A DNA stretch of 64,000 bases. Source: Microbacteriaceae bacterium PS02066. Lineage in GTDB: Bacteria > Actinomycetota > Actinomycetes > Actinomycetales > Microbacteriaceae. Position numbers and translations under genes: made by a program. The stretch is from positions 62,001 to 126,000 of the forward strand of contig JASCPH010000002.1 in NCBI GenBank assembly GCA_029959545.1, read 5' to 3'. Shown here in pieces: positions 30,347-43,119 of the stretch (position 1 is its first letter; every line of letters starts with the position of its first letter). A model generated the notes under the pieces. It was given only the letters and a program-made list of their open reading frames with translations, was not told the origin of the DNA and did not search any database.

Positions 30347-32818
30347 TCAGACGCCGGCGTACGCGACGATGCCGCGTCGCACCGAGTCGAGAGCAGTGCG
30401 CGCGGTCGTGGCCAGTGGCGCATCCGCGACGAGCGAGAGCTGATCGAGCAGATCGATCGTCTGTTTGGCCCACCGCACGAAGTCACCGGCCGCCATGTCG
30501 GCCTCGGTGAGGACACGGTCGAGGATCGACCCGCGCGCCCACGAGTACATCGCCTGCGACAGCCCCACCGCGGGTGGCGTGGAACCGGGCAGGTGGTGAT
30601 CGCGTTCGATGTCGTCGAGCCGCTGCCACAGGTCCTCGGTGGCGGTGAGGGCGGTGCGGAAGGCGCCGCGCGGCAGGCCGCGCTCCCCCACTCCCGCCTC
30701 GTCGCGTCGGGGCTCGTACACGAGTGCGCACACCAGCGCCGCCAGTGATGGGGCGTCCAATCGGTCCCAGATGCCGGTGCGCAGAGACTCCGCGACGAGG
30801 AGATCGCGCTCTCCGTAGATCCGCCGCATCCGCCGGCCCGATGCGGTGAGGATGGTGCGCCCCTCGTCGTCATGGGCGACGTAGTCGAGTTCACTCAAGA
30901 CGTCGACGACTCGGTCGAAGACGCGCGCGACCGTTCCGGTACGCGAGGAGATCTGGGCGCGCATGCGTTCCACACGCTTGTTCAGCTTGAGATAGCGCTC
31001 GGCCCATCGTGCGTGAGACTCACGGTCCGGGCAGGAGTGGCACGGGTGATGCTGGAGCCGACGACGGAGCGATTGAATGCGACGGGTGCGTTCGTCACGG
31101 GTCGCCCGGGAGGCGTTCGCGTCTTTGCGCCCGAGCTTCTCCAGTTCGGAGACCTCCTGTCGCAGCTGCGCGTACTCCGCGTAGTCGCCACGGTCGCAGG
31201 TCATCGCCTCGCGGTAGCCCGCCAGCGACTCCTCCGCCGCGCGCACCTCCCGAGCCAGTCCCACGACAGAGCGGTCCGCCTGGAACTGCGCGAACGAGGA
31301 TTCGAGGATCTCGCGGGCGCGCGGGCGCCCGAACTGGTCGATCAGATTGACCGCCATGTTGTAGGTGGGTCGGAAGCTCGAGTTCAGTGGATAGGTGCGG
31401 CGGGATGCGAGGGCCGCCACCGCCTGCGGGTCCATCGTCTCGCTCCACTGCACCACCGCGTGCCCCTCGACGTCGATGCCCCGACGCCCCGCCCGGCCGG
31501 TCAGCTGGGTGTACTCCCCCGACGTGATGGCGACACGCGCTTCGCCGTTGAACTTCTCGAGCTTCTCGAGCACCACCGTGCGGGCGGGCATGTTGATCCC
31601 CAGCGCCAGCGTCTCGGTCGCGAAGACGACCTTGACGAGCTTCCGGCGGAAGAGCTCCTCGACGATCTCCTTGAAGGCGGGCAGAAGTCCGGCGTGGTGG
31701 GCCGCGACCCCGCGTTCGAGGTTCTCTCGCCACTCCCAGAAGCCGAGAACAGCCAGATCTTCGTCCGGTAGGTTGCGTGTGCGTTCCTCCACGATCTCTC
31801 TGATCGCGCGACGCTCGTCGGCGTCGGTGAGGCGGAGTCCTGATCGCCGCACCTGCTGCACGGCACCGTCGCAACCCGCACGCGAGAAGATGAAGAAGAT
31901 CGCGGGGAGCAGGTTGGCGCGTCCCAGCAGGTCGACGACCTCGGGGCGGTCGATCCGTTCGAGCCGTCGGGTGTTTCCCGATCGGAGCTGCTTCGTTCCG
32001 TGCCGATGCGGACGACGATGAGCGTCGGCATCCCGCCGCGCCTGCTGCCCGTAGCGCTTGCGGTCGTGTCCCGGTCCCCCGCCGGAGCGGATGCGGAGCA
32101 GCTCCTGGTTGACTTGGGCGGCGGCGACACCGGCGCGATCGTCGAACAGGGGCAGAAGGTCTCCACGCACCAGGACGTGCTGCTCGAGAGGGACGGGTCG
32201 CGTCTCGGAGACGATGATGTCGGTCTCGCCGCGCACCGTGTCCAACCAGTCGCCGAACTCCTCGGCGTTGGAGACCGTGGCAGACAGGGAGACGAGCCGG
32301 ACGCTCTCCGGGAGGTGGATGATCACCTCTTCCCAGACCGCGCCGCGGAAGCGATCGGCCAGGTAGTGCACTTCGTCCATCACGACGAAACGGAGATCGC
32401 GCAACGCGGAGGAACCCGCATAGAGCATGTTGCGTAGCACCTCGGTCGTCATCACCACGATGCGCGCATTGCCGTTGATGTTGGTGTCGCCGGTGAGCAG
32501 GCCCACGTTCTCCGGTCCGTAGACCTCGGTCAGCTCGCGGAACTTCTGGTTCGACAGCGCCTTCATGGGCGTCGTGTAGAAGGCCTTGTCGCGCGAGGTG
32601 AGCATGGCCAGATGGATGGCGAACTCCCCCACGATGGTCTTTCCGGCGCCCGTGGGCGCGGCGACGAGGACACTTCGCCCTTCTTCGAGAGAGGCGCATC
32701 CCTCGAGCTGGAACGGGTCGAGCTCGAAGCGCTGGGCGGCCGCGAACGCCGCCGTCTCGGGATGTGAAGCCCGCGACTGTGCGGCGGCGAACCTCTCTGC
32801 GGCGGAGAGTTCGGTCAC
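30347..32818 (-). CDS. helY: Ski2-like DEAD/DEAH RNA helicase HelY
   Basis: An 823-residue superfamily 2 helicase of the Ski2/Mtr4 type found beside tatC in actinobacteria. Motif I is VAAPTGAGKTIVGE (about 51-64), motif II VVMDEVHYLADRFRG, motif III LSATVSNAEEF, and motif VI QLTGRAGRRGID. The C-terminal half contains the DSHCT-type helical region with zinc-like HHPCHSCPDRESHARW near residue 640. An Arg/His/Asp-rich insert occupies residues ~245-285. The role is presumed RNA turnover or processing; no substrate is known. Its start overlaps the tatC stop by 4 nt. Confidence 0.93.
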   Translation of the reverse strand: MTELSAAERFAAAQSRASHPETAAFAAAQRFELDPFQLEGCASLEEGRSVLVAAPTGAGKTIVGEFAIHLAMLTSRDKAFYTTPMKALSNQKFRELTEVYGPENVGLLTGDTNINGNARIVVMTTEVLRNMLYAGSSALRDLRFVVMDEVHYLADRFRGAVWEEVIIHLPESVRLVSLSATVSNAEEFGDWLDTVRGETDIIVSETRPVPLEQHVLVRGDLLPLFDDRAGVAAAQVNQELLRIRSGGGPGHDRKRYGQQARRDADAHRRPHRHGTKQLRSGNTRRLERIDRPEVVDLLGRANLLPAIFFIFSRAGCDGAVQQVRRSGLRLTDADERRAIREIVEERTRNLPDEDLAVLGFWEWRENLERGVAAHHAGLLPAFKEIVEELFRRKLVKVVFATETLALGINMPARTVVLEKLEKFNGEARVAITSGEYTQLTGRAGRRGIDVEGHAVVQWSETMDPQAVAALASRRTYPLNSSFRPTYNMAVNLIDQFGRPRAREILESSFAQFQADRSVVGLAREVRAAEESLAGYREAMTCDRGDYAEYAQLRQEVSELEKLGRKDANASRATRDERTRRIQSLRRRLQHHPCHSCPDRESHARWAERYLKLNKRVERMRAQISSRTGTVARVFDRVVDVLSELDYVAHDDEGRTILTASGRRMRRIYGERDLLVAESLRTGIWDRLDAPSLAALVCALVYEPRRDEAGVGERGLPRGAFRTALTATEDLWQRLDDIERDHHLPGSTPPAVGLSQAMYSWARGSILDRVLTEADMAAGDFVRWAKQTIDLLDQLSLVADAPLATTARTALDSVRRGIVAYAGV

Positions 32819-33624
32819 AGCGTCGTATCCAGCAGCGCCGCCTCGCGCTTGCGGCGCCGGCGGTCGAAGATGATCGACAGGCCCGCGGCCGCGAAGAACA
32901 GCACGATCAGGATGGCGCCGAGCAGCAGCATGCTGACGACGTCAGCGGCCGGGGTCGCGACGGCGGCGAAGATCGTCGCGACGAGCACGGCCACCCGCCA
33001 TCCCTTCAGAATGGCCATTCCCGACATGATGCCCGCGAGGTTGAGCGCCACCAGGAACACGGGCAGCACGAACGAGACGCCCACGACGATCATCAGTTTG
33101 AAGATGAAGTCGTAGTACTCGGATGCGGAGTAGAAGTTCACGGCGCCTTGGGGAGTGAAGCTCCACATGACCTCGATGACGTGCGGCATGACGAGGACCG
33201 CGACGTAGCACCCCGCGAAGAACAGCGGGATGGCGGCCGCGACGAAGCCGATCGTGTAGCGAATCTCCTTACGCGTCAGACCCGGCATGATGAACGCCCA
33301 GATCTGCCAGAGCCACACAGGAGCCGAGAAGAAGATGCCGATCGTGACCGCGATCCGCATCCTCATCTCGAACGCAGAGGTGACCGTCGGAAAGTTCAGC
33401 GCGGAGAAGTCGTCGCCTCGCTGCCTCGCCACGTACTCGATGGGTGCCATCAGCCAGTCGAGGATCGGCTGAGTGACGAACAGCGCGACGATCATCGCCA
33501 CAACGAGCGCGATGGCGCCGATCATCAGACGACGCCGCAGCTCGATGAGGTGCTGTCCCAGCGACATCCGCTTCTCGCGGCGTGGTTCTTCAGCTCCCGT
33601 GATGGGCGAGGCCGGGGCCGTCAC
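32815..33624 (-). CDS. tatC: Sec-independent protein translocase TatC
   Basis: Core receptor of the twin-arginine translocase, which moves folded proteins across the membrane; a client in this window is the phosphoesterase at 48635. The 269 residues have six membrane helices. The family region MSLGQHLIELRRRLM lies near residue 20, and FEMRMRIAVTIGIFFSAPVW holds the conserved Glu-containing loop. GTG start only 6 bp after tatA. The C-terminal tail is basic (FDRRRRKREAALL). The C-terminal end overlaps helY. Confidence 0.95.
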   Translation of the reverse strand: MTAPASPITGAEEPRREKRMSLGQHLIELRRRLMIGAIALVVAMIVALFVTQPILDWLMAPIEYVARQRGDDFSALNFPTVTSAFEMRMRIAVTIGIFFSAPVWLWQIWAFIMPGLTRKEIRYTIGFVAAAIPLFFAGCYVAVLVMPHVIEVMWSFTPQGAVNFYSASEYYDFIFKLMIVVGVSFVLPVFLVALNLAGIMSGMAILKGWRVAVLVATIFAAVATPAADVVSMLLLGAILIVLFFAAAGLSIIFDRRRRKREAALLDTTL

Positions 33625-33630
33625 GGCCGG

Positions 33631-33885
33631 TCAGGCGCGAGTGTCGGGCGAGGTCCCCGTGTCGGGAGCCTTCGGCGTGGACTCTGCCGGAGCCGGGGAC
33701 GGCGCAACGGTCGTCGCTGTGGACGACGCCGCGGCGTCGTCTTCCTTCATGGCCTTCATCTCTCCGCGGAACACCCGGGCGGACTGTCCCACGCTCTTGG
33801 CCAGAGCCGGCAGCTTGGCAGCGCCGAAGAGGAGCAGAATCACCGCGAGGATGACCAGCAGGTGCGGCCAACCGAAAGCGCCCAT
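33631..33885 (-). CDS. tatA: Sec-independent protein translocase TatA
   Basis: Forms the Tat pore or membrane-thinning oligomer with TatC. The 84 residues begin with one membrane helix (about 5-21), then the hinge FGAAKLPALAKSVGQSARVFRGEM, an amphipathic helix, and an Ala/Ser/Thr/Pro-rich acidic tail. ATG 33885 is preferred over a longer frame because TatA proteins begin directly at the helix and TTGGAGATCTCC supplies the ribosome-binding site. A TACACT hexamer ~30 bp upstream may be its own promoter, although pafC lies just ahead on the same strand. Confidence 0.93.
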   Translation of the reverse strand: MGAFGWPHLLVILAVILLLFGAAKLPALAKSVGQSARVFRGEMKAMKEDDAAASSTATTVAPSPAPAESTPKAPDTGTSPDTRA

Positions 33886-33948
33886 GGAGATCTCCAAAAG
33901 TTCGAGGTGCCCCCAGTGTAACCCGCGCACCTGCGACGGGGCCGGGGA

Positions 33949-34920
33949 TCAGTCGGAGTGTTCGTACTGCGCCAGACCTGCGTGCGCCCAGGATGCGGCG
34001 GCTCGGCGGGCCGCCTCGGGTGCCAGGATCTCGACGTCACCGGCGCGGCGGGCGGCGAGCCGCCGCAGCACGCCTTCATCCGCCAGGCGCACCGTGGCGG
34101 TCGCCATGCCGCCGGAGCTCTCGATCTCGGCGTGCGTCAGGAACTCGCCGAGAAGCGGTGCCACTGCCTCCGGGAACCGCAGACGCGCGACGATATCGCC
34201 CTGGAGGGTGTCGAACAGGGCGGGCAGCGGATCCGCGCCGTGCGTCACCGGGATGTGGGTGACCTCGACGTCGGACACACGGTCGAGGTGGAACGTGCGC
34301 GTGGCCTGGCGCAGGTGGCACCAGCCCTGCAGATACCACTGTCCTTCGGCGATGTGCACCTTGACCGGGTCGACCGTGCGGGTCGTCGCGGCCGCATCCG
34401 GGGTCTTGTACGAGAACGAGACCGCACGACCGCGGCGGAGTGCCTCGTCGACGCGCTCGCGCACGTGGTCGACGGGGGCGGGGGCGACGATGACGTCGGC
34501 CGGCGCCGATGCCGCGCCGCGCGCGAGTTTCGCCAGGAGGCCCTTCAGGAGGGCGGAATCGCTCACTCCGGGCAGCGAGCCCGTGAGCTGGAGGCCGGCG
34601 AGCAGCGCCGCGGCCTCGCGCGCCGTCAGGCGAGGGGTGCGCTCCAGGCCGACGGTGTGCGTCAGCGCGATGCGGTCCTGCGTGTCGAGCAGATCCCAAT
34701 CGATGTCGAAGAGGTCGCCGGGCAGCGACCAGAAGCCGCCCTCCCCGGGACGGCCGATGACCGTCAGCTTCTCGACCATTCCCCGCATCTGCGCGGGGCT
34801 CACTTCGAAGTCGCGCGCGGCGTCGTCCAGGGCGACATCGCCGCGTTCGAGCAGATAGGGCACGAGTTGCATGATCAAGGCGGCGCGCTCGGTGGCGACC
34901 AGCGGACGCGAAGCGTTCAC
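33949..34920 (-). CDS. pafC: WYL-domain transcriptional regulator PafC
   Basis: Partner of PafB in the heterodimeric activator of the mycobacterial DNA-damage response. The 323 residues contain an N-terminal winged-helix (about 8-60: DAARDFEVSPAQMRGMVEKL). The middle holds the WYL sensor domain (~140-220) with GQWYLQGWCHLRQATRTFHLDR, and a C-terminal WCX domain follows. WYL domains bind single-stranded nucleic acid in studied members. GTG start overlaps the pafB stop by 4 nt; the longer frame upstream is not PafC-like. tatA follows. Confidence 0.92.
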   Translation of the reverse strand: MNASRPLVATERAALIMQLVPYLLERGDVALDDAARDFEVSPAQMRGMVEKLTVIGRPGEGGFWSLPGDLFDIDWDLLDTQDRIALTHTVGLERTPRLTAREAAALLAGLQLTGSLPGVSDSALLKGLLAKLARGAASAPADVIVAPAPVDHVRERVDEALRRGRAVSFSYKTPDAAATTRTVDPVKVHIAEGQWYLQGWCHLRQATRTFHLDRVSDVEVTHIPVTHGADPLPALFDTLQGDIVARLRFPEAVAPLLGEFLTHAEIESSGGMATATVRLADEGVLRRLAARRAGDVEILAPEAARRAAASWAHAGLAQYEHSD

Positions 34921-35912
34921 GCGCGTCCTCCATGCAGCGCCATCACTGCGCGCAGGCGCTCGACCACGAGATCGCGCAGGTGGGGTGGGTCCACCACGCG
35001 TGCCTCGGGGCCATAGGAGGCGAGCTCGTCGGCGAGGATGTGCGCGTCGACGTACGGCACCAGGATGCCTTGAGCGGCCGAGCGGCCACGGCGGGAGAGG
35101 CGCAGCGCGGCCTCGGTTCCCGGGTGCACTTCGATGAGGGCCTCCTGTCGCGCCGCGAGCTCCTGGAGCTCGCGGAGGGCGCGTTCCCCCGCGCCCGCGC
35201 GCAAAGAGGGGTCGAAGCTCTCCTTGGTGATCTGGACCGCGTCGGTAATGCGGGAGAGGAGGAATGTGCGCTCCGCACCGAGCGTCACATCCGTGCCGTA
35301 CACGTGCCAACGGGCCTCGTACTCGACAAGGGCGAGCGGCCGCACCCGGCGCCGGCGCGCTGTCGACTCCCCCGGGCGCACATAGGTGAACGAGACGACG
35401 CGCGCCTGCTCGATGGCACGCTGCAGCGGGGCGAACGCCGTGTCGCGCACGCTGATGCGCGGCGCATAACCGACGATCTCCGCGTCGACCTCGTTGCCCA
35501 GGGCTCGGATCTTCCGTAGCCCGCTCCGTGCCGGCAACGACATGCTGTTCTCGCTCCAGACAGAGCCCGCCAGATTCAGCAGGGCGATCTCCGCGGGCGT
35601 GAACGTAATGTCGTCGGGGAGCGCGTACTCCGCGGTCGGCACACGATAGCGGGCCTCGCGGAGGTCATCCGGGTCGGCGTGGTCACCGATGGTCTCGATC
35701 GGCACTCCCAGCGCGCGCAGGTTCTCCTTGTCGCGCTCGAACATCTTCTCCAGAGCGGTCTTCGACGCCCCGGCCTCCGCCTGCTCCCGGTACCCCGAGA
35801 CCGATCGCAGGATCGTGTCCTTGGTGAGGCCCTGTTCCGTCGCCATGAGCGCGACGGCGAGGTTCACCAAGCGCTCCTCTGGCGCGACGGAACTCGCTTC
35901 GTTCATGGGCAC
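34917..35912 (-). CDS. pafB: WYL-domain transcriptional regulator PafB
   Basis: First half of the PafBC regulator. The 331 residues have an N-terminal winged helix (~15-75: LTKDTILRSVSGYREQ), then a WYL domain with EYEARWHVYGTDVTLGAERTF (~205-225) and a C-terminal WCX domain. Three starts are possible at 35918 (ATG), 35912 (GTG) and 35906 (ATG). GTG is chosen because TAGGAT ends 6 nt before it; the later ATG has a Shine-Dalgarno-like GGGGGTG instead. It is the first gene of a pafBC-tatAC-helY run. The proteasome genes usually upstream are absent. Confidence 0.9.
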   Translation of the reverse strand: MPMNEASSVAPEERLVNLAVALMATEQGLTKDTILRSVSGYREQAEAGASKTALEKMFERDKENLRALGVPIETIGDHADPDDLREARYRVPTAEYALPDDITFTPAEIALLNLAGSVWSENSMSLPARSGLRKIRALGNEVDAEIVGYAPRISVRDTAFAPLQRAIEQARVVSFTYVRPGESTARRRRVRPLALVEYEARWHVYGTDVTLGAERTFLLSRITDAVQITKESFDPSLRAGAGERALRELQELAARQEALIEVHPGTEAALRLSRRGRSAAQGILVPYVDAHILADELASYGPEARVVDPPHLRDLVVERLRAVMALHGGRA

Positions 35913-35918
35913 CCCCAT

Positions 35919-35924
35919 ATCCTA
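35919..35924 (-). promoter_or_regulatory. -10-like hexamer of pafB
   Basis: Minus-strand TAGGAT, 6 nt before GTG 35912. Confidence 0.45.
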
Positions 35925-35955
35925 GGCGCGCCACCGAGCGCCGGCGCGGCGGGGT

Positions 35956-36867
35956 TCAGCCCAGCGAGCCGAGGATGTCGATCACGTAGATCGAGGCGTC
36001 GGAAGAGGCATCGGCGGGCGGCTCGACGACCAGCACCTGCGAGCCGATCGGAAGGCCGGCGATCGTCTGCGAGACGACCGAGTCTCCCCCCAGCGCGACC
36101 GCGTCGGGCTTGTCGTCCCAGGTGGTCTTCGTGACGCGCTTGCTCTTCCAGTCGACCTGCAGCACGTTCACGACGACAGTGGACCCGTCGGCGGGCACGT
36201 CGTGGTCGCCCTTCTTCAGGACCTCCACCTTGCGCTCGGACGGGGCGGTGCCATCGGGAACCACCACGCCGGGGTGGCCGTCGTCGGTGAGCACGACCGA
36301 CGGCATGCCGTGCGCCTCGTTGTACTGCGGTGCGCCGTCCGCTGCCGGGAGCATCACCGAGCGCAGGTCCAGGACCGCGACGAGCGGAGTGCCTTCGGCG
36401 AGCCGCAGCTGCTCGAGGAAGCCTGCTTCGACCTGATCGCCGGAGAGACCCACGACGATCTTCGACCCCCCGGTCGCGCACTCCAGCGCGCTCTTGATCC
36501 CCGGCATCGCCTGGGTCAGGCTCGTCAGCGGCAGATAGAGCGGCTGCCCGTAGCCCTCCGCAGCCAGAACTTCGCCGCTCGTCGCATCGGCGAGGGTGAA
36601 GCCCACGTCTACCACCTGGTTGTCGGAGACGATGGCATTTCCGTCGCCGGTAACGAGGTCGTCGTACTGCACGCCGTCGATATTGATCGGCGAGGACACC
36701 TGGACCGTGGGTGCGACGGTGCTGTCGTCGCCGGAGACGGCGACGAGCGAACCGATCGCGCCGACGGAATCAGGGCGATCGCAACCCGATGCTGCCGAGG
36801 ACGAGCAGCCGACGAGGGCCAGGGTCATCAGGCCGACTGCGGCGGCCGCGGCGGGGAGTCTGCGCAC
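35956..36867 (-). CDS. FKBP-type peptidyl-prolyl isomerase-like lipoprotein
   Basis: A 303-residue exported lipoprotein. The signal peptide ends in lipobox LVGC (residues 18-21), so it is lipidated by Lgt and anchored outside the membrane. Two FKBP-like segments follow. The first is around residues 60-170, with QPLYLPLTSLTQAMPGIKSA; the second is around 190-300, with VLKKGD, VVVNVLQVDW and QTIAGLPIGSQVLVVEPP. Several aromatic pocket residues of active FKBPs seem absent in the first, so only the second may be an isomerase. GTG is 6 nt from TAGACT. trmI ends 4 bp upstream. Confidence 0.78.
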   Translation of the reverse strand: MRRLPAAAAAVGLMTLALVGCSSSAASGCDRPDSVGAIGSLVAVSGDDSTVAPTVQVSSPINIDGVQYDDLVTGDGNAIVSDNQVVDVGFTLADATSGEVLAAEGYGQPLYLPLTSLTQAMPGIKSALECATGGSKIVVGLSGDQVEAGFLEQLRLAEGTPLVAVLDLRSVMLPAADGAPQYNEAHGMPSVVLTDDGHPGVVVPDGTAPSERKVEVLKKGDHDVPADGSTVVVNVLQVDWKSKRVTKTTWDDKPDAVALGGDSVVSQTIAGLPIGSQVLVVEPPADASSDASIYVIDILGSLG

Positions 36868-36871
36868 CGGA

Positions 36872-37888
36872 TCAGTCTACGTGCTCGTGGGCGGCGTCCT
36901 CCGCCGCCGCTTGGCGTGCACCGGCAGCCGCGCGCTGCGCCTCGCGCACGCGCTTGCGGAGGTTCTTGTCGGTGATCTGCCGCTCCCCCACCGCTCCCGG
37001 CGTCCACAGCTCCACATCCTCGTCGCTGTAGCTCGACTTGGAGGCCCGCCGTTTCTGCGCGGGAAGCACGGCGCCGGGAGCGAGTCGCCGCGCCGTCAGC
37101 AGGAACCCGGTGTGCGCGACCATGCGGTGATCCGGGCGCACCGCGAGCCCCTCGACGTGCCAGCCGCGCACGAGCGTTTCGCTCGCCTCCGGGTCGGTGA
37201 AGAGCTCGCTCTGGCGGATGTACTCCGCGACACGGCTGAGCTGCGTCGCGGTGGCGACGTAGCAGATCACCACGCCGCCGGGCGCGAGGGCATCGGCGAC
37301 CGCATCGATGCACTCCCACGGCGCCAGCATGTCGAGCACGACGCGGTCGACGGATGCCGGTTCGACCGCTTGCGGCAAGCGCTCGACGAGATCCCCGACC
37401 TCGAGCGTCCAGTTCTCGGGCACGGAGCCGAGGAAGGTCTCGACGTTCGCGCGCGCGACCTCGGCGAAGTCCTCCCGCCGCTCGAAGGACGTCAGCCGTC
37501 CCGCCGCTCCGACTCCACGCAGGAGCCAGAGCGCGAGCGCACCCGACCCGACACCCGCTTCGACGACGACCGCCCCGGGGAAGATGTCGGCCTGCGCGAC
37601 GATCTGCGCCGCGTCCTTCGGGTAGACGATCGCCGCGCCGCGCGGCATCGACATGACGAAATCACGCAGCAGCGGACGCAGGGCGAGGTACTCGTGGCCG
37701 CCGCTGTTGGCGACGACGGAGCCGTCAGGCAGGCCCTCGAGGTCGCGATGACGCAGCACGCCGTGATGCGTGTGCAGCTCGCCGCCGTCCTTCAGCGTGA
37801 TCGTGTGCAGTCGACCCTTCGGTCCCGTCAACTGGATGCGATCGCCGAAGCGGAAGGGGCCGCGGGGTGCGGAGGCGGGAGCGGTCAT
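36872..37888 (-). CDS. trmI: tRNA (adenine-N1)-methyltransferase TrmI
   Basis: Makes m1A58 in the T-loop of tRNAs, using SAM. The 338 residues start with a small beta-barrel (~10-70, RFGDRIQLTGPKGRLHTI) and continue with the Rossmann domain. The SAM loop is VVEAGVGSGALALWLLR (~115-131), and the catalytic motif is VVLDMLAPWECI (~200-211). The C-terminal ~60 residues are a charged Ala/Glu/Arg-rich tail. ATG is chosen by family N-terminus and by the 4-nt overlap with the upstream HAD gene. In mycobacteria (Rv2118c) the proteasome genes lie downstream of this gene. Confidence 0.94.
   Translation of the reverse strand: MTAPASAPRGPFRFGDRIQLTGPKGRLHTITLKDGGELHTHHGVLRHRDLEGLPDGSVVANSGGHEYLALRPLLRDFVMSMPRGAAIVYPKDAAQIVAQADIFPGAVVVEAGVGSGALALWLLRGVGAAGRLTSFERREDFAEVARANVETFLGSVPENWTLEVGDLVERLPQAVEPASVDRVVLDMLAPWECIDAVADALAPGGVVICYVATATQLSRVAEYIRQSELFTDPEASETLVRGWHVEGLAVRPDHRMVAHTGFLLTARRLAPGAVLPAQKRRASKSSYSDEDVELWTPGAVGERQITDKNLRKRVREAQRAAAGARQAAAEDAAHEHVD
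36874..36879 (-). promoter_or_regulatory. -10-like hexamer of the FKBP gene
   Basis: Minus-strand TAGACT, 6 nt before GTG 36867 and inside the end of trmI. Confidence 0.45.
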
Positions 37889-38571
37889 CGTGCGACGTCC
37901 TCGAATTCGTGGTGTGCGGTGAACAGACGCGCGATGTCGTCCGCGTCGGTGTCGGTGAGCGAGGGCCACAGGGCGGCTGCCCCGACGCCCTCGAGCGACA
38001 CCATGTGGGGAACGCCGAGTGCGACGGTGCCGGCCGCGATGGCGGAGCGCAGCCCGTTCGGCGAGTCCTCGATCGCGACGGTGCGCGCCGGATCGACGCC
38101 GAGCGAGTCGCAGGCCTGCAGGTACGGATCCGGGAAAGGCTTCGGGCGGGTCGCCTCGTCTCCGGCGATCACGAGGTCGAACGCATCGAAGTCGATGAGC
38201 TCGACGACCGCGTCCGCCATGCGACGCAGGGACATGGTCACCAGGGCCGTGCGCACGCCTGCAGCGCGCAGACTGGCCAGCAGCTCCCGGGCCCCAGGAC
38301 GGAAGGGCACGCCGTCCTCCCTCAGCGACTGCATGACACGCGCGGTCAGGGTGTCGATGATCTGATGTTCGGGAAGGCGGACGCCAGCGTCCTGAAGAAG
38401 ACGGGCCGCGTCGTCGAGCCCGAGGCCGACCAGCCCCAGCGCCTGTTCGTGGGTCCAGACGCCGCCGTAGGAGGCGACGAGCGGCCCCTCGGCGGCCATC
38501 CAATAGGGCTCAGTGTCGACGAGAGTGCCGTCCATGTCCCACAGGACGGCCTCGGGAAGCTGGGGGTTCAC
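37885..38571 (-). CDS. HAD-superfamily hydrolase, beta-phosphoglucomutase/phosphatase type
   Basis: A 228-residue haloacid-dehalogenase phosphatase. Motif I is LWDMDGTLVDTEPYW with nucleophile D12 and acid/base D14. Motif II is the Thr/Ser in ALVTMSLR (~113), and motif III/IV are KPFPDPYL and VAIEDSPNGLRSA. The helical cap between motifs I and II is of the C1 type. Substrates in this group are sugar phosphates or nucleotides; no choice can be made. GTG is 6 nt from TAGCAT, so this gene begins the transcript that includes trmI through a 4-nt overlap. Confidence 0.9.
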   Translation of the reverse strand: MNPQLPEAVLWDMDGTLVDTEPYWMAAEGPLVASYGGVWTHEQALGLVGLGLDDAARLLQDAGVRLPEHQIIDTLTARVMQSLREDGVPFRPGARELLASLRAAGVRTALVTMSLRRMADAVVELIDFDAFDLVIAGDEATRPKPFPDPYLQACDSLGVDPARTVAIEDSPNGLRSAIAAGTVALGVPHMVSLEGVGAAALWPSLTDTDADDIARLFTAHHEFEDVAR

Positions 38572-38675: not shown

Positions 38676-39545
38676 GTGACGGTGGAGGGACTCGGTCGGC
38701 GCGTTCTGGTCGCCGCCTTCGACGGCTGGAACGACGCGGGTGAGGCGGCCTCGGCCGCCGTTGCGCTCCTGCGCGCCGAGGGCGAGTACGAGAGCGTGTA
38801 CTCGGTGGATCCCGAACTGTACTTCGACTATCAGTACACCCGCCCCACGGTGAGCCTGGATGCGGAGGGCAATCGCGCGCTCTCGTGGCCGGAGGCGACG
38901 CTGCTGCGCCCTGCGCAGCAGACCCGGGGCACGCAGCTGTGGCTGCTGACCGGCGTCGAGCCTGCGCGAGCGTGGAAGGCGTTCGCCTCCGAACTCGTCG
39001 ACTTCGCTCTCGCCGAGGACATCACCGGCTTCGTCGCGCTCGGCTCGATGATGGCGGATGTGCCGCACACCCGTCCGATCTCGATCTTCGCGGGCAGCGA
39101 CAGCGACGCGCTGCGCACCGGCCTGGGCCTCGAGAGAAGCTCCTACGAAGGACCCGTCGGCATCCTGAGCGTACTCGCCCATGTCGCTGAACAGGCCGGC
39201 ATCCCGGCGGCGTCGCTGTGGGCCAGCGTTCCGCACTACGTCGCGGGACACACGCCCTCTCCGAAGGCCACGCTGGCGCTGCTGGACCGTCTGGAGGACA
39301 TCACCGGTGCGAAAGTGCCCCGGGGCGAGCTGTCGACGCAGGCCGCCGCGTGGGAGGCATCCATCGACGCGGCCGCCGCCGACGACGAGGAGATGACCGA
39401 GTACATCCGCGGACTCGAGCGCACGCGCGACACGTGGGACTCCCCGGATGCGTCCGGCGACGCGATCGCCCGTGAGTTCGAGCAGTACCTGCGTCGCCGC
39501 GGCGACGGGCCGGGCAAGCCCGGCCGCGACGAGCCGCGGCGCTGA
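38676..39545 (+). CDS. PAC2-family protein
   Basis: A 289-residue protein of the PAC2 family, related to archaeal and eukaryotic proteasome-assembly chaperone 2. It begins with VEGLGRRVLVAAFDGWNDAGEAAS (residues 3 onward), the family hallmark, and contains EDITGFVALGSMMADVPHTRP and PVGILSVLAHVAEQAGIP. The C-terminal ~50 residues are acidic then basic and look disordered. Actinobacterial PAC2 genes are often near proteasome genes, none of which is present here. Start GTG is preceded by GAGAGGGAGTGAC; a TATCCT hexamer lies ~45 bp upstream. Function unproven. Confidence 0.85.
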   Translation: MTVEGLGRRVLVAAFDGWNDAGEAASAAVALLRAEGEYESVYSVDPELYFDYQYTRPTVSLDAEGNRALSWPEATLLRPAQQTRGTQLWLLTGVEPARAWKAFASELVDFALAEDITGFVALGSMMADVPHTRPISIFAGSDSDALRTGLGLERSSYEGPVGILSVLAHVAEQAGIPAASLWASVPHYVAGHTPSPKATLALLDRLEDITGAKVPRGELSTQAAAWEASIDAAAADDEEMTEYIRGLERTRDTWDSPDASGDAIAREFEQYLRRRGDGPGKPGRDEPRR

Positions 39546-42057: not shown

Positions 42058-43119
42058 TTGGCTATCGTCGCGCATACCCATCCCTTTGTCATCGGCGTCG
42101 ACGCCCACGCGAAGACGCATACTCTGGCGATCCTCGCCGCACCGTTGGGAGAACTGGTCGACTCGGCCCAGTTCCCGACCACTCACGCGGGTCTTCAACG
42201 CGCGCTCGACTGGGCCGCGCGGCGCACCGGCGCGGACCTGGACGTCCTGTGGGTCATCGAGGGAATCGGCTCCTACGGTGCTCAGCTTGCGAAGACAGCC
42301 GCCCAGACCGGCTACCAGGTCGCCGAAGCACCCCGGATGAACGCGCGCGCGAACCGCGGAGTCGGCAAGTCCGACCCCCTCGATGCCCGCCGAATCGCAG
42401 CAGCCGCGCTGCCCCTGGAGACGACGCGCCTGAGGAGCCCGCGCGATGATGACGGCGAACGCGCCGCCCTGCGCGTCCTCGTCGCCGCCCGCGAGCACAT
42501 GACTACCGAACGCACCGCCACCCTCAACGCTCTGACCGGGCTCTTGCGGATCGTCGACCTCGGCATCGACGCTCGTCGACCGCTGTCCAGCACTCGGATC
42601 GCCGAGATCACACGGTGGCGAGTCCGCGACGAAACCATCGCCGCCGCTACAGCCCGGGCTGAAGCGATCCGCCTCGCCCAACGAGTGGCTGCCCTCGACG
42701 ACGATCTCACCGAGAACCGATCCCGAATGGACACCCTCGTGCAGGAAACACCAGCCGCGGCCCTGCTCGACGAGCCGGGTATCGGAACCGTCACGGCAGC
42801 GATCGCGATGACCGCCTGGTCCCACGCCGGCAGGCTCCGCTCCGAGGCGGCATTCGCGTCCCTCGCGGGGGTGAACCCCATCCCTGCGTCCTCAGGAAAC
42901 ACCACACGACACCGACTCAACCGAGGCGGAGACAGGCGACTGAACCGCGCCCTGCACATGGCCGTCGTCACCCGCATGCGCTGCGACCCGGAAACCCGCG
43001 CCTACGTTGAGCGCCGAACCGCTGAAGGACGCAGCACCAAGGAGATCCGTCGATGCCTCAAGCGTTACCTCGCCCGACGCATCTACCGCCAGCTGAACCG
43101 TGCAGCAACCCTGACTTGA
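42058..43119 (+). CDS. IS110-family transposase (DEDD RuvC-like plus serine domain)
   Basis: The 353-residue recombinase appears intact. The N-terminal RuvC-like domain has D15 in VIGVDAHAKTH, E68 in WVIEGIGS, and D106/D109 in GVGKSDPLDARR. A coiled-coil-like linker spans ~180-230. The C-terminal Tnp domain has LDEPGIGTVTAAIAM and GVNPIPASSGNTTRHRLNR with the likely catalytic serine at 278 or 279. The start is TTG at 42058, with AGGAAGGAG ~12 nt upstream; no ATG or GTG fits the conserved N-terminus. The stop codon lies within TTGACA (43116-43121), a -35-like sequence at the right end. Confidence 0.92.
   Translation: MAIVAHTHPFVIGVDAHAKTHTLAILAAPLGELVDSAQFPTTHAGLQRALDWAARRTGADLDVLWVIEGIGSYGAQLAKTAAQTGYQVAEAPRMNARANRGVGKSDPLDARRIAAAALPLETTRLRSPRDDDGERAALRVLVAAREHMTTERTATLNALTGLLRIVDLGIDARRPLSSTRIAEITRWRVRDETIAAATARAEAIRLAQRVAALDDDLTENRSRMDTLVQETPAAALLDEPGIGTVTAAIAMTAWSHAGRLRSEAAFASLAGVNPIPASSGNTTRHRLNRGGDRRLNRALHMAVVTRMRCDPETRAYVERRTAEGRSTKEIRRCLKRYLARRIYRQLNRAATLT

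Follow-up and report, generated by a model that had tools for sequence, protein, structure and literature searches.

The window analyzed here, a 64,000-nucleotide stretch of the genome of Microbacteriaceae bacterium PS02066 (assembly GCA_029959545.1, contig JASCPH010000002.1, positions 62,001 to 126,000), carries the paired DNA-damage regulator genes pafB and pafC next to the site at which related families encode the Pup-proteasome system, and is missing that system. We infer that the whole Pup-proteasome block was deleted in the ancestor of the Microbacteriaceae between the tRNA methyltransferase gene trmI and an FKBP-like lipoprotein gene, and that pafBC, lying just outside the deleted block, was kept under selection as a proteasome-independent activator of the damage response, a reading to which we assign a probability of about 0.85. 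The PafBC damage response of this family thus probably works without the proteasome of its name. The first-pass annotation of this DNA had proposed that the degradation system was lost and its damage-response regulators retained, a proposal that genome- and family-wide searches bear out; what is added here is the family-wide scale of the absence, the common breakpoint, and the conservation of PafBC-type promoters.

A search of the window's own genome for pup, dop, pafA, mpa, and prcBA, set beforehand as the test of the proposed loss, found none of them elsewhere in the genome. Mapping over the family, in samples of genomes at least 90% complete drawn evenly from a larger group, extends the absence to all Microbacteriaceae genomes sampled. 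Neither the window's own genome nor any other family genome searched had a match to Pup (0 of 149) or to PafA/Dop (PF03136; 0 of 299 genomes from 78 genera). With the own genome counted in, the 20S subunits PrcB and PrcA or HslV (PF00227) were missing from all 149 genomes and Mpa/ARC from all 100 at E<=1e-100, a cut-off of our own choosing, Mpa/ARC being undetected by tblastn in the family loci as well. The control Corynebacterium glutamicum was positive for Pup, PafA/Dop, and Mpa, and PF00227 was positive in 10 of 14 controls.

Coordinates and Pfam matches confirm the arrangement described earlier, in which trmI is followed 4 bp on by a lipoprotein gene and then by pafB with the distal gene order intact. 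The genes from the HAD-family hydrolase through trmI, lipoprotein, pafB, pafC, tatA, and tatC to a helY-type helicase are co-directional on the minus strand, and a PAC2 gene lies divergently upstream of the HAD–trmI–pafBC run:

37885..38571, minus strand: HAD-family hydrolase (PF13419), upstream of trmI
36872..37888, minus strand: trmI, tRNA methyltransferase (PF14801, PF08704), left border of the block presumed lost
36868..36871: 4-bp junction of trmI and the lipoprotein gene; ARC-dop-pup-(prcB-prcA)-pafA occupy the equivalent spot in other families
35956..36867, minus strand: lipoprotein (lipobox LVGC, by eye), positional counterpart of the FKBP-like lipoprotein 3' of pafA elsewhere
34917..35918, minus strand: pafB (WYL, WCX; PDB entry 6sj9 at E=6.9e-39)
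33949..34920, minus strand: pafC (PF19187, WYL, WCX; 6sj9 at E=5.1e-32), with a GTG start overlapping the pafB stop
33631..33930, minus strand: tatA
32815..33624, minus strand: tatC
30347..32818, minus strand: helY-type Ski2/MTR4-like helicase (PF08148, PF00270)
38676..39545, plus strand: PAC2-family protein (PF09754; nearest PDB entries 3mnf and 5un0, Rv2125-type)

This locus was compared with 16 outside loci, of which 15 represent as many different families (the order search numbered 18 besides the Microbacteriaceae) and one is from Kocuria (L200), the queries being the window proteins together with ARC, Dop, Pup, PrcB, PrcA, and PafA from two outside stretches, named by eye and from their expected order. 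Pup-system genes were present in all 16 outside loci and lay between trmI and the FKBP-like gene in all 10 that show both borders. Among the incomplete loci, L058 stops at a contig end, L053 falls short of trmI, and L061 has only Dop and Pup and no trmI; L054, L056, and L064 gave no FKBP-like match. The same six proteins had no tblastn match at E<=1e-3 in 104 Microbacteriaceae loci (25 plus 79 with record titles, at least three being counted twice), five of which (L130, L170, L173, L187, and L199) bear titles not of Microbacteriaceae and were counted in the family by TrmI identities of 66–82%. Since the succession of trmI and pafB without Pup genes recurs in these 104 loci, the arrangement in the window is not due to chance. 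The gap between the two genes has a median of 1.1 kb in the family and is at most 1.5 kb in 100 of the 104 loci, against 6.7–15 kb in the eight outside loci where it could be measured, the four longer family gaps holding tandem lipoprotein copies (L073, L201) or other open reading frames (ORFs; L124, L189). Because the FKBP-like gene, where detected in other families, follows PafA (by gene order, with ORFs read in four loci), trmI and the FKBP-like gene would mark the ends of the lost block, and the common breakpoint is most simply explained by one deletion in the family ancestor. As a side observation, the record of L130 is titled Planococcus sp. APC 4015, and this Microbacterium-type locus, at the upper TrmI identity of 82%, is probably mislabelled or contaminated.

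Both regulator proteins of the window find their best PDB match in Arthrobacter PafBC (6sj9), each aligning to its own half, and Pfam places WYL and WCX domains in both. The PafC-specific helix-turn-helix (HTH) model PF19187 matches PafC; the HTH region of PafB has no Pfam match but lies within the 6sj9 alignment. Membership in PafBC is accordingly indicated by the HTH, WYL, and WCX domains, by the adjacent pafB–pafC pair, and by a recA promoter with an 8-nt spacer in a relaxed form of the consensus. PF19187 matched 195 of 199 Microbacteriaceae genomes (193 above the curated cut-off), and the four without a match are small genomes of 0.9–1.9 Mb. The sequence features predict that PafBC is here probably a stand-alone DNA-damage activator, kept because its job needs no protein degradation.

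The mycobacterial consensus for this promoter is reported as tTGTCRgtg, 8 nt, TannnT (PMC5656591). We detected recA in all 40 genomes searched and took the best-scoring 30 as loci (L092 to L121, the own genome being L109). Within 300 bases upstream of recA, 27 of the 30 family genomes, among them that of the window, contain TGTCRGNG-N8-TANNNT; 100 dinucleotide-preserving shuffles gave a mean and a maximum of 0, and a spacer of 7 or 9 was found in none of the 30. The other three regions contain TGTC-N12-TANNNT, and the own-genome site, TGTCGGAGGCCCTGCCTACCGT, starts 125 bases before recA. Stricter forms upstream of recA are confined to 14 of 30 regions for exact TGTCRGTG and to one for full TTGTCRGTG. 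The relaxed motif occurs 24 times across the own genome and the reversed pattern four times; nine of the 24 sites are on a single contig, C82, and 15 elsewhere. Eight of the latter 15 lie ahead of recA, mfd, xth, a UvrD-type helicase gene, the methyladenine glycosylase gene tag, and genes for an AlkZ-like glycosylase, a TM0106-type RecB-like nuclease, and an SNF2 helicase, gene content at non-recA sites having played no part in the choice of the relaxed motif, and two more precede DUF222 genes. At nine of the 15 sites an ORF starts 23–32 nt from the beginning of the motif, the distance that leaderless transcription would give. A regulon of DNA-repair genes under PafBC-type −26/−10 promoters therefore seems, from its promoter sequences, to persist in this genome.

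Several observations weigh against this interpretation. The motif was relaxed after inspection of the recA regions, which makes the recA count partly circular at the relaxed positions, and strict TTGTCRGTG occurs once in the own genome, at a place not preceding a recognizable repair gene, the strict scan being uninformative. Five of the 15 sites outside C82 precede a CvpA/trypsin protein gene, an EamA transporter gene, or three places without a family match or clear ORF (L206, L220, L221), although the L220 gene, which has no Pfam match, presumably resembles a DNA glycosylase, judging by eye. The mfd match covers the first 499 residues, truncated at the locus end, and the NCBIfam scores of mfd and SNF2 lie under the cut-offs of those models. 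At E<=0.001, PF19187 also matches Escherichia coli and Bacillus subtilis, and its weakest matches, in small genomes, are no proof of PafC. The single deletion is argued from parsimony and not from a tree. The evidence for the regulon is promoter sequence rather than transcription data from this organism, and this leaves room for the strongest alternative, that PafBC was retained for some other role or is in decay, the motif serving another regulator. ClgR is reported to recognize the same P1 motif in mycobacteria (PMC5656591), and for that reason conservation of the motif is no proof of its use by PafBC. We consider this alternative improbable, as PafC is kept in nearly every family genome (195 of 199), the WYL and WCX domains are kept in both proteins, and the element, its spacing, and the kind of target gene all fit the published PafBC promoter.

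Beyond the family, PF03136 matched 266 of 297 genomes drawn from the order; all 266 lie outside the Microbacteriaceae, a group of at most 273 genomes in this draw, and the 20 listed genomes without PF03136 all belong to Microbacteriaceae. Of 279 newly drawn order genomes, 13 lack it, six listed as Microbacteriaceae and seven unlisted (G301, G346, G462, G482, G520, G557, G576); about six of the seven fall in family f4 by draw position, other members of which do have PF03136. The class search gave matches in 322 of 394 genomes and none in 72, with 48 of the 347 newly drawn lacking PF03136. The gaps left by these 48 fall mostly at the draw place of family f37, in which one listed genome, G852, does carry PF03136. 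To judge from these draw-order gaps, f37 is probably a second family mostly without PafA/Dop, and the class-wide search thus probably speaks against the Microbacteriaceae as the sole family with the loss. PF03136 matches occur in every one of the 18 other families that the order search numbered and in 32 more that the class search listed. A history in which the Microbacteriaceae never had the system and other families gained Pup genes later at the same spot would agree with the lack of any remnant in the 104 family loci, but it conflicts with this breadth of occurrence and would need many insertions at one spot to explain the shared gene position in the 10 two-border loci, so we regard it as very unlikely. 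Hardly any weight attaches to an assembly gap in a draft of 3.19 Mb in 157 contigs (completeness given as 99.99), with the genes present but missed, an artefact ruled out by single-contig relatives (e.g. G096, G195) that are also without a match, and opposed by the contiguous locus with its 4-bp junction and by the positive result of the same search in the 266 order genomes.

If the block was lost in the ancestor and PafBC retained as an independent activator, single-stranded DNA (ssDNA) would bind the WYL domains of PafBC and let the housekeeping RNA polymerase use promoters with the −26 element, as in mycobacteria, and ordinary proteases, with Clp, Lon, and FtsH as candidates, would clear the repair proteins afterwards. 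In Mycobacterium smegmatis, ssDNA is reported to activate PafBC at the WYL domains, and PafBC to adapt sigma A to −26 promoters (PMC11804915); many repair proteins are reported to be removed by the proteasome after induction (PMC6789036). In the Microbacteriaceae the first half of this scheme, activation, is intact in sequence and the second, proteasomal removal, is gone, from which we infer that activation probably proceeds in the same way. Pupylation was reported to be unaffected by a pafBC deletion in M. smegmatis (PMC5656591), which fits the separability of PafBC from pupylation, and of 56 genes for replication and repair that DNA damage induces in M. tuberculosis, 38 are reported to have the motif (PMC8151990). 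The family offers a natural experiment on whether PafBC depends in any way on pupylation and on the clearance of repair proteins where pupylation is lacking.

Of 30 Microbacteriaceae recA leaders, the sequences that separate the PafBC motif from the start of recA, 25 share two arms, GCCYTGYC and GRCAG...GGC. At one position the arms pair as T-A in 18 leaders and as C-G in seven, never with a mismatch, and the own-genome leader, in which the 5' arm was read by eye, also gives C-G; this covariation of the paired arms makes the region a possible new leader RNA. Rfam had no match up to E=1 in five recA loci, folds of 26 single leaders mostly did not exceed shuffles in stability, and only seven pairs survived in the RNAalifold consensus. 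Contig C82 (37,420 bases; L226, L227) bears 18 copies of the palindrome GTGAATGTGACATTCAC at up to three mismatches, 16 of which, judged by eye, immediately follow a TGTC-N12-TA promoter; nine match the PafBC-type motif. Possibly the contig is a mobile element whose small genes share a damage-type promoter and an operator; its ends show no overlap, from 20 to 399 bases, that would indicate a circle. It is a tentative and rather doubtful extension of these observations that the PafBC response of the Microbacteriaceae has been fully uncoupled from targeted degradation and rewired, with recA tuned post-transcriptionally by the covarying leader RNA and the small genes of a probable mobile element tied to host DNA damage by operator-overlaid arrays of PafBC-like promoters.

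The label of FKBP lipoprotein given to the gene between trmI and pafB stands in part. The protein is probably FKBP-derived, going by its position and by tblastn similarity to same-place proteins of other families, the FKBP nature of which was read by eye from sequence, but it has no Pfam match at 1e-3 and reaches a mycobacterial FKBP12 at only E=0.14. The pattern F[DE][SAT][ST][YWFM] (FDSSW-like), which we take to be that of the FKBP active site, was not found in the window protein (35956–36867) and occurs in 40 of 104 Microbacteriaceae ORFs versus 8 of 11 outside the family. Because the motif is missing from the window protein and many orthologues, a non-enzymatic role is suggested. The neighboring PAC2 gene, present in 98 of 104 family loci, had been cited by the first-pass annotation as a proteasome-linked survivor, which our comparison does not uphold: the protein is nearest to the PAC2-family entries 3mnf and 5un0 (Rv2125 homologue), and a proteasome relic is ruled out. 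Scanned with a weight matrix of the 27 recA sites, the window shows no PafBC-type promoter, and autoregulation of pafBC is not claimed. The ORF at 42058–43119, near the pafBC locus, resembles in its sequence an IS110-type transposase gene.

One review gives the Pup locus as present in all Actinobacteria, which does not hold for the Microbacteriaceae and probably not for a second family either. Pup has been reported in all major actinobacterial lineages, with two FKBP genes in the Arthrobacter and Streptomyces neighborhoods (PMC2588565), and proteasomes have been called nearly universal in a survey whose species include Clavibacter, Leifsonia, and Microbacterium (PMC4255298), a figure of which may make the absence in those genera visible. 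Among the open-licence papers listed, none reports Pup-proteasome loss in the Microbacteriaceae in its title or the opening of its abstract, and the loss may be recorded elsewhere, for example in figures or tables.

The Pup locus described for Mycobacterium and Streptomyces (PMC8223512, PMC2588565) has, like the window, trmI on one side and an FKBP-like gene, pafB, pafC, tatA, and tatC on the other, but unlike the window it has ARC/Mpa, Dop, Pup, PrcB, PrcA, and PafA between trmI and the FKBP-like gene. Proteasome-less pupylation loci share with the Microbacteriaceae the absence of 20S subunits; however, Corynebacterium, as reported (PMC3511204), and Kocuria (L200) keep ARC, Dop, Pup, and PafA, whereas in the Microbacteriaceae pupylation itself is gone. 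Compared on the Microbacteriaceae side only, the recA mRNA of most members examined would carry an extra paired leader. The PafBC response of M. smegmatis is matched in the window's genome by the gene pair, the WYL and WCX domains, and a −26/−10 promoter at recA and other repair genes, and differs from it in that the Microbacteriaceae have a slightly relaxed motif (ATGTCRGNG) and no pupylation or proteasome with which to clear the induced proteins.

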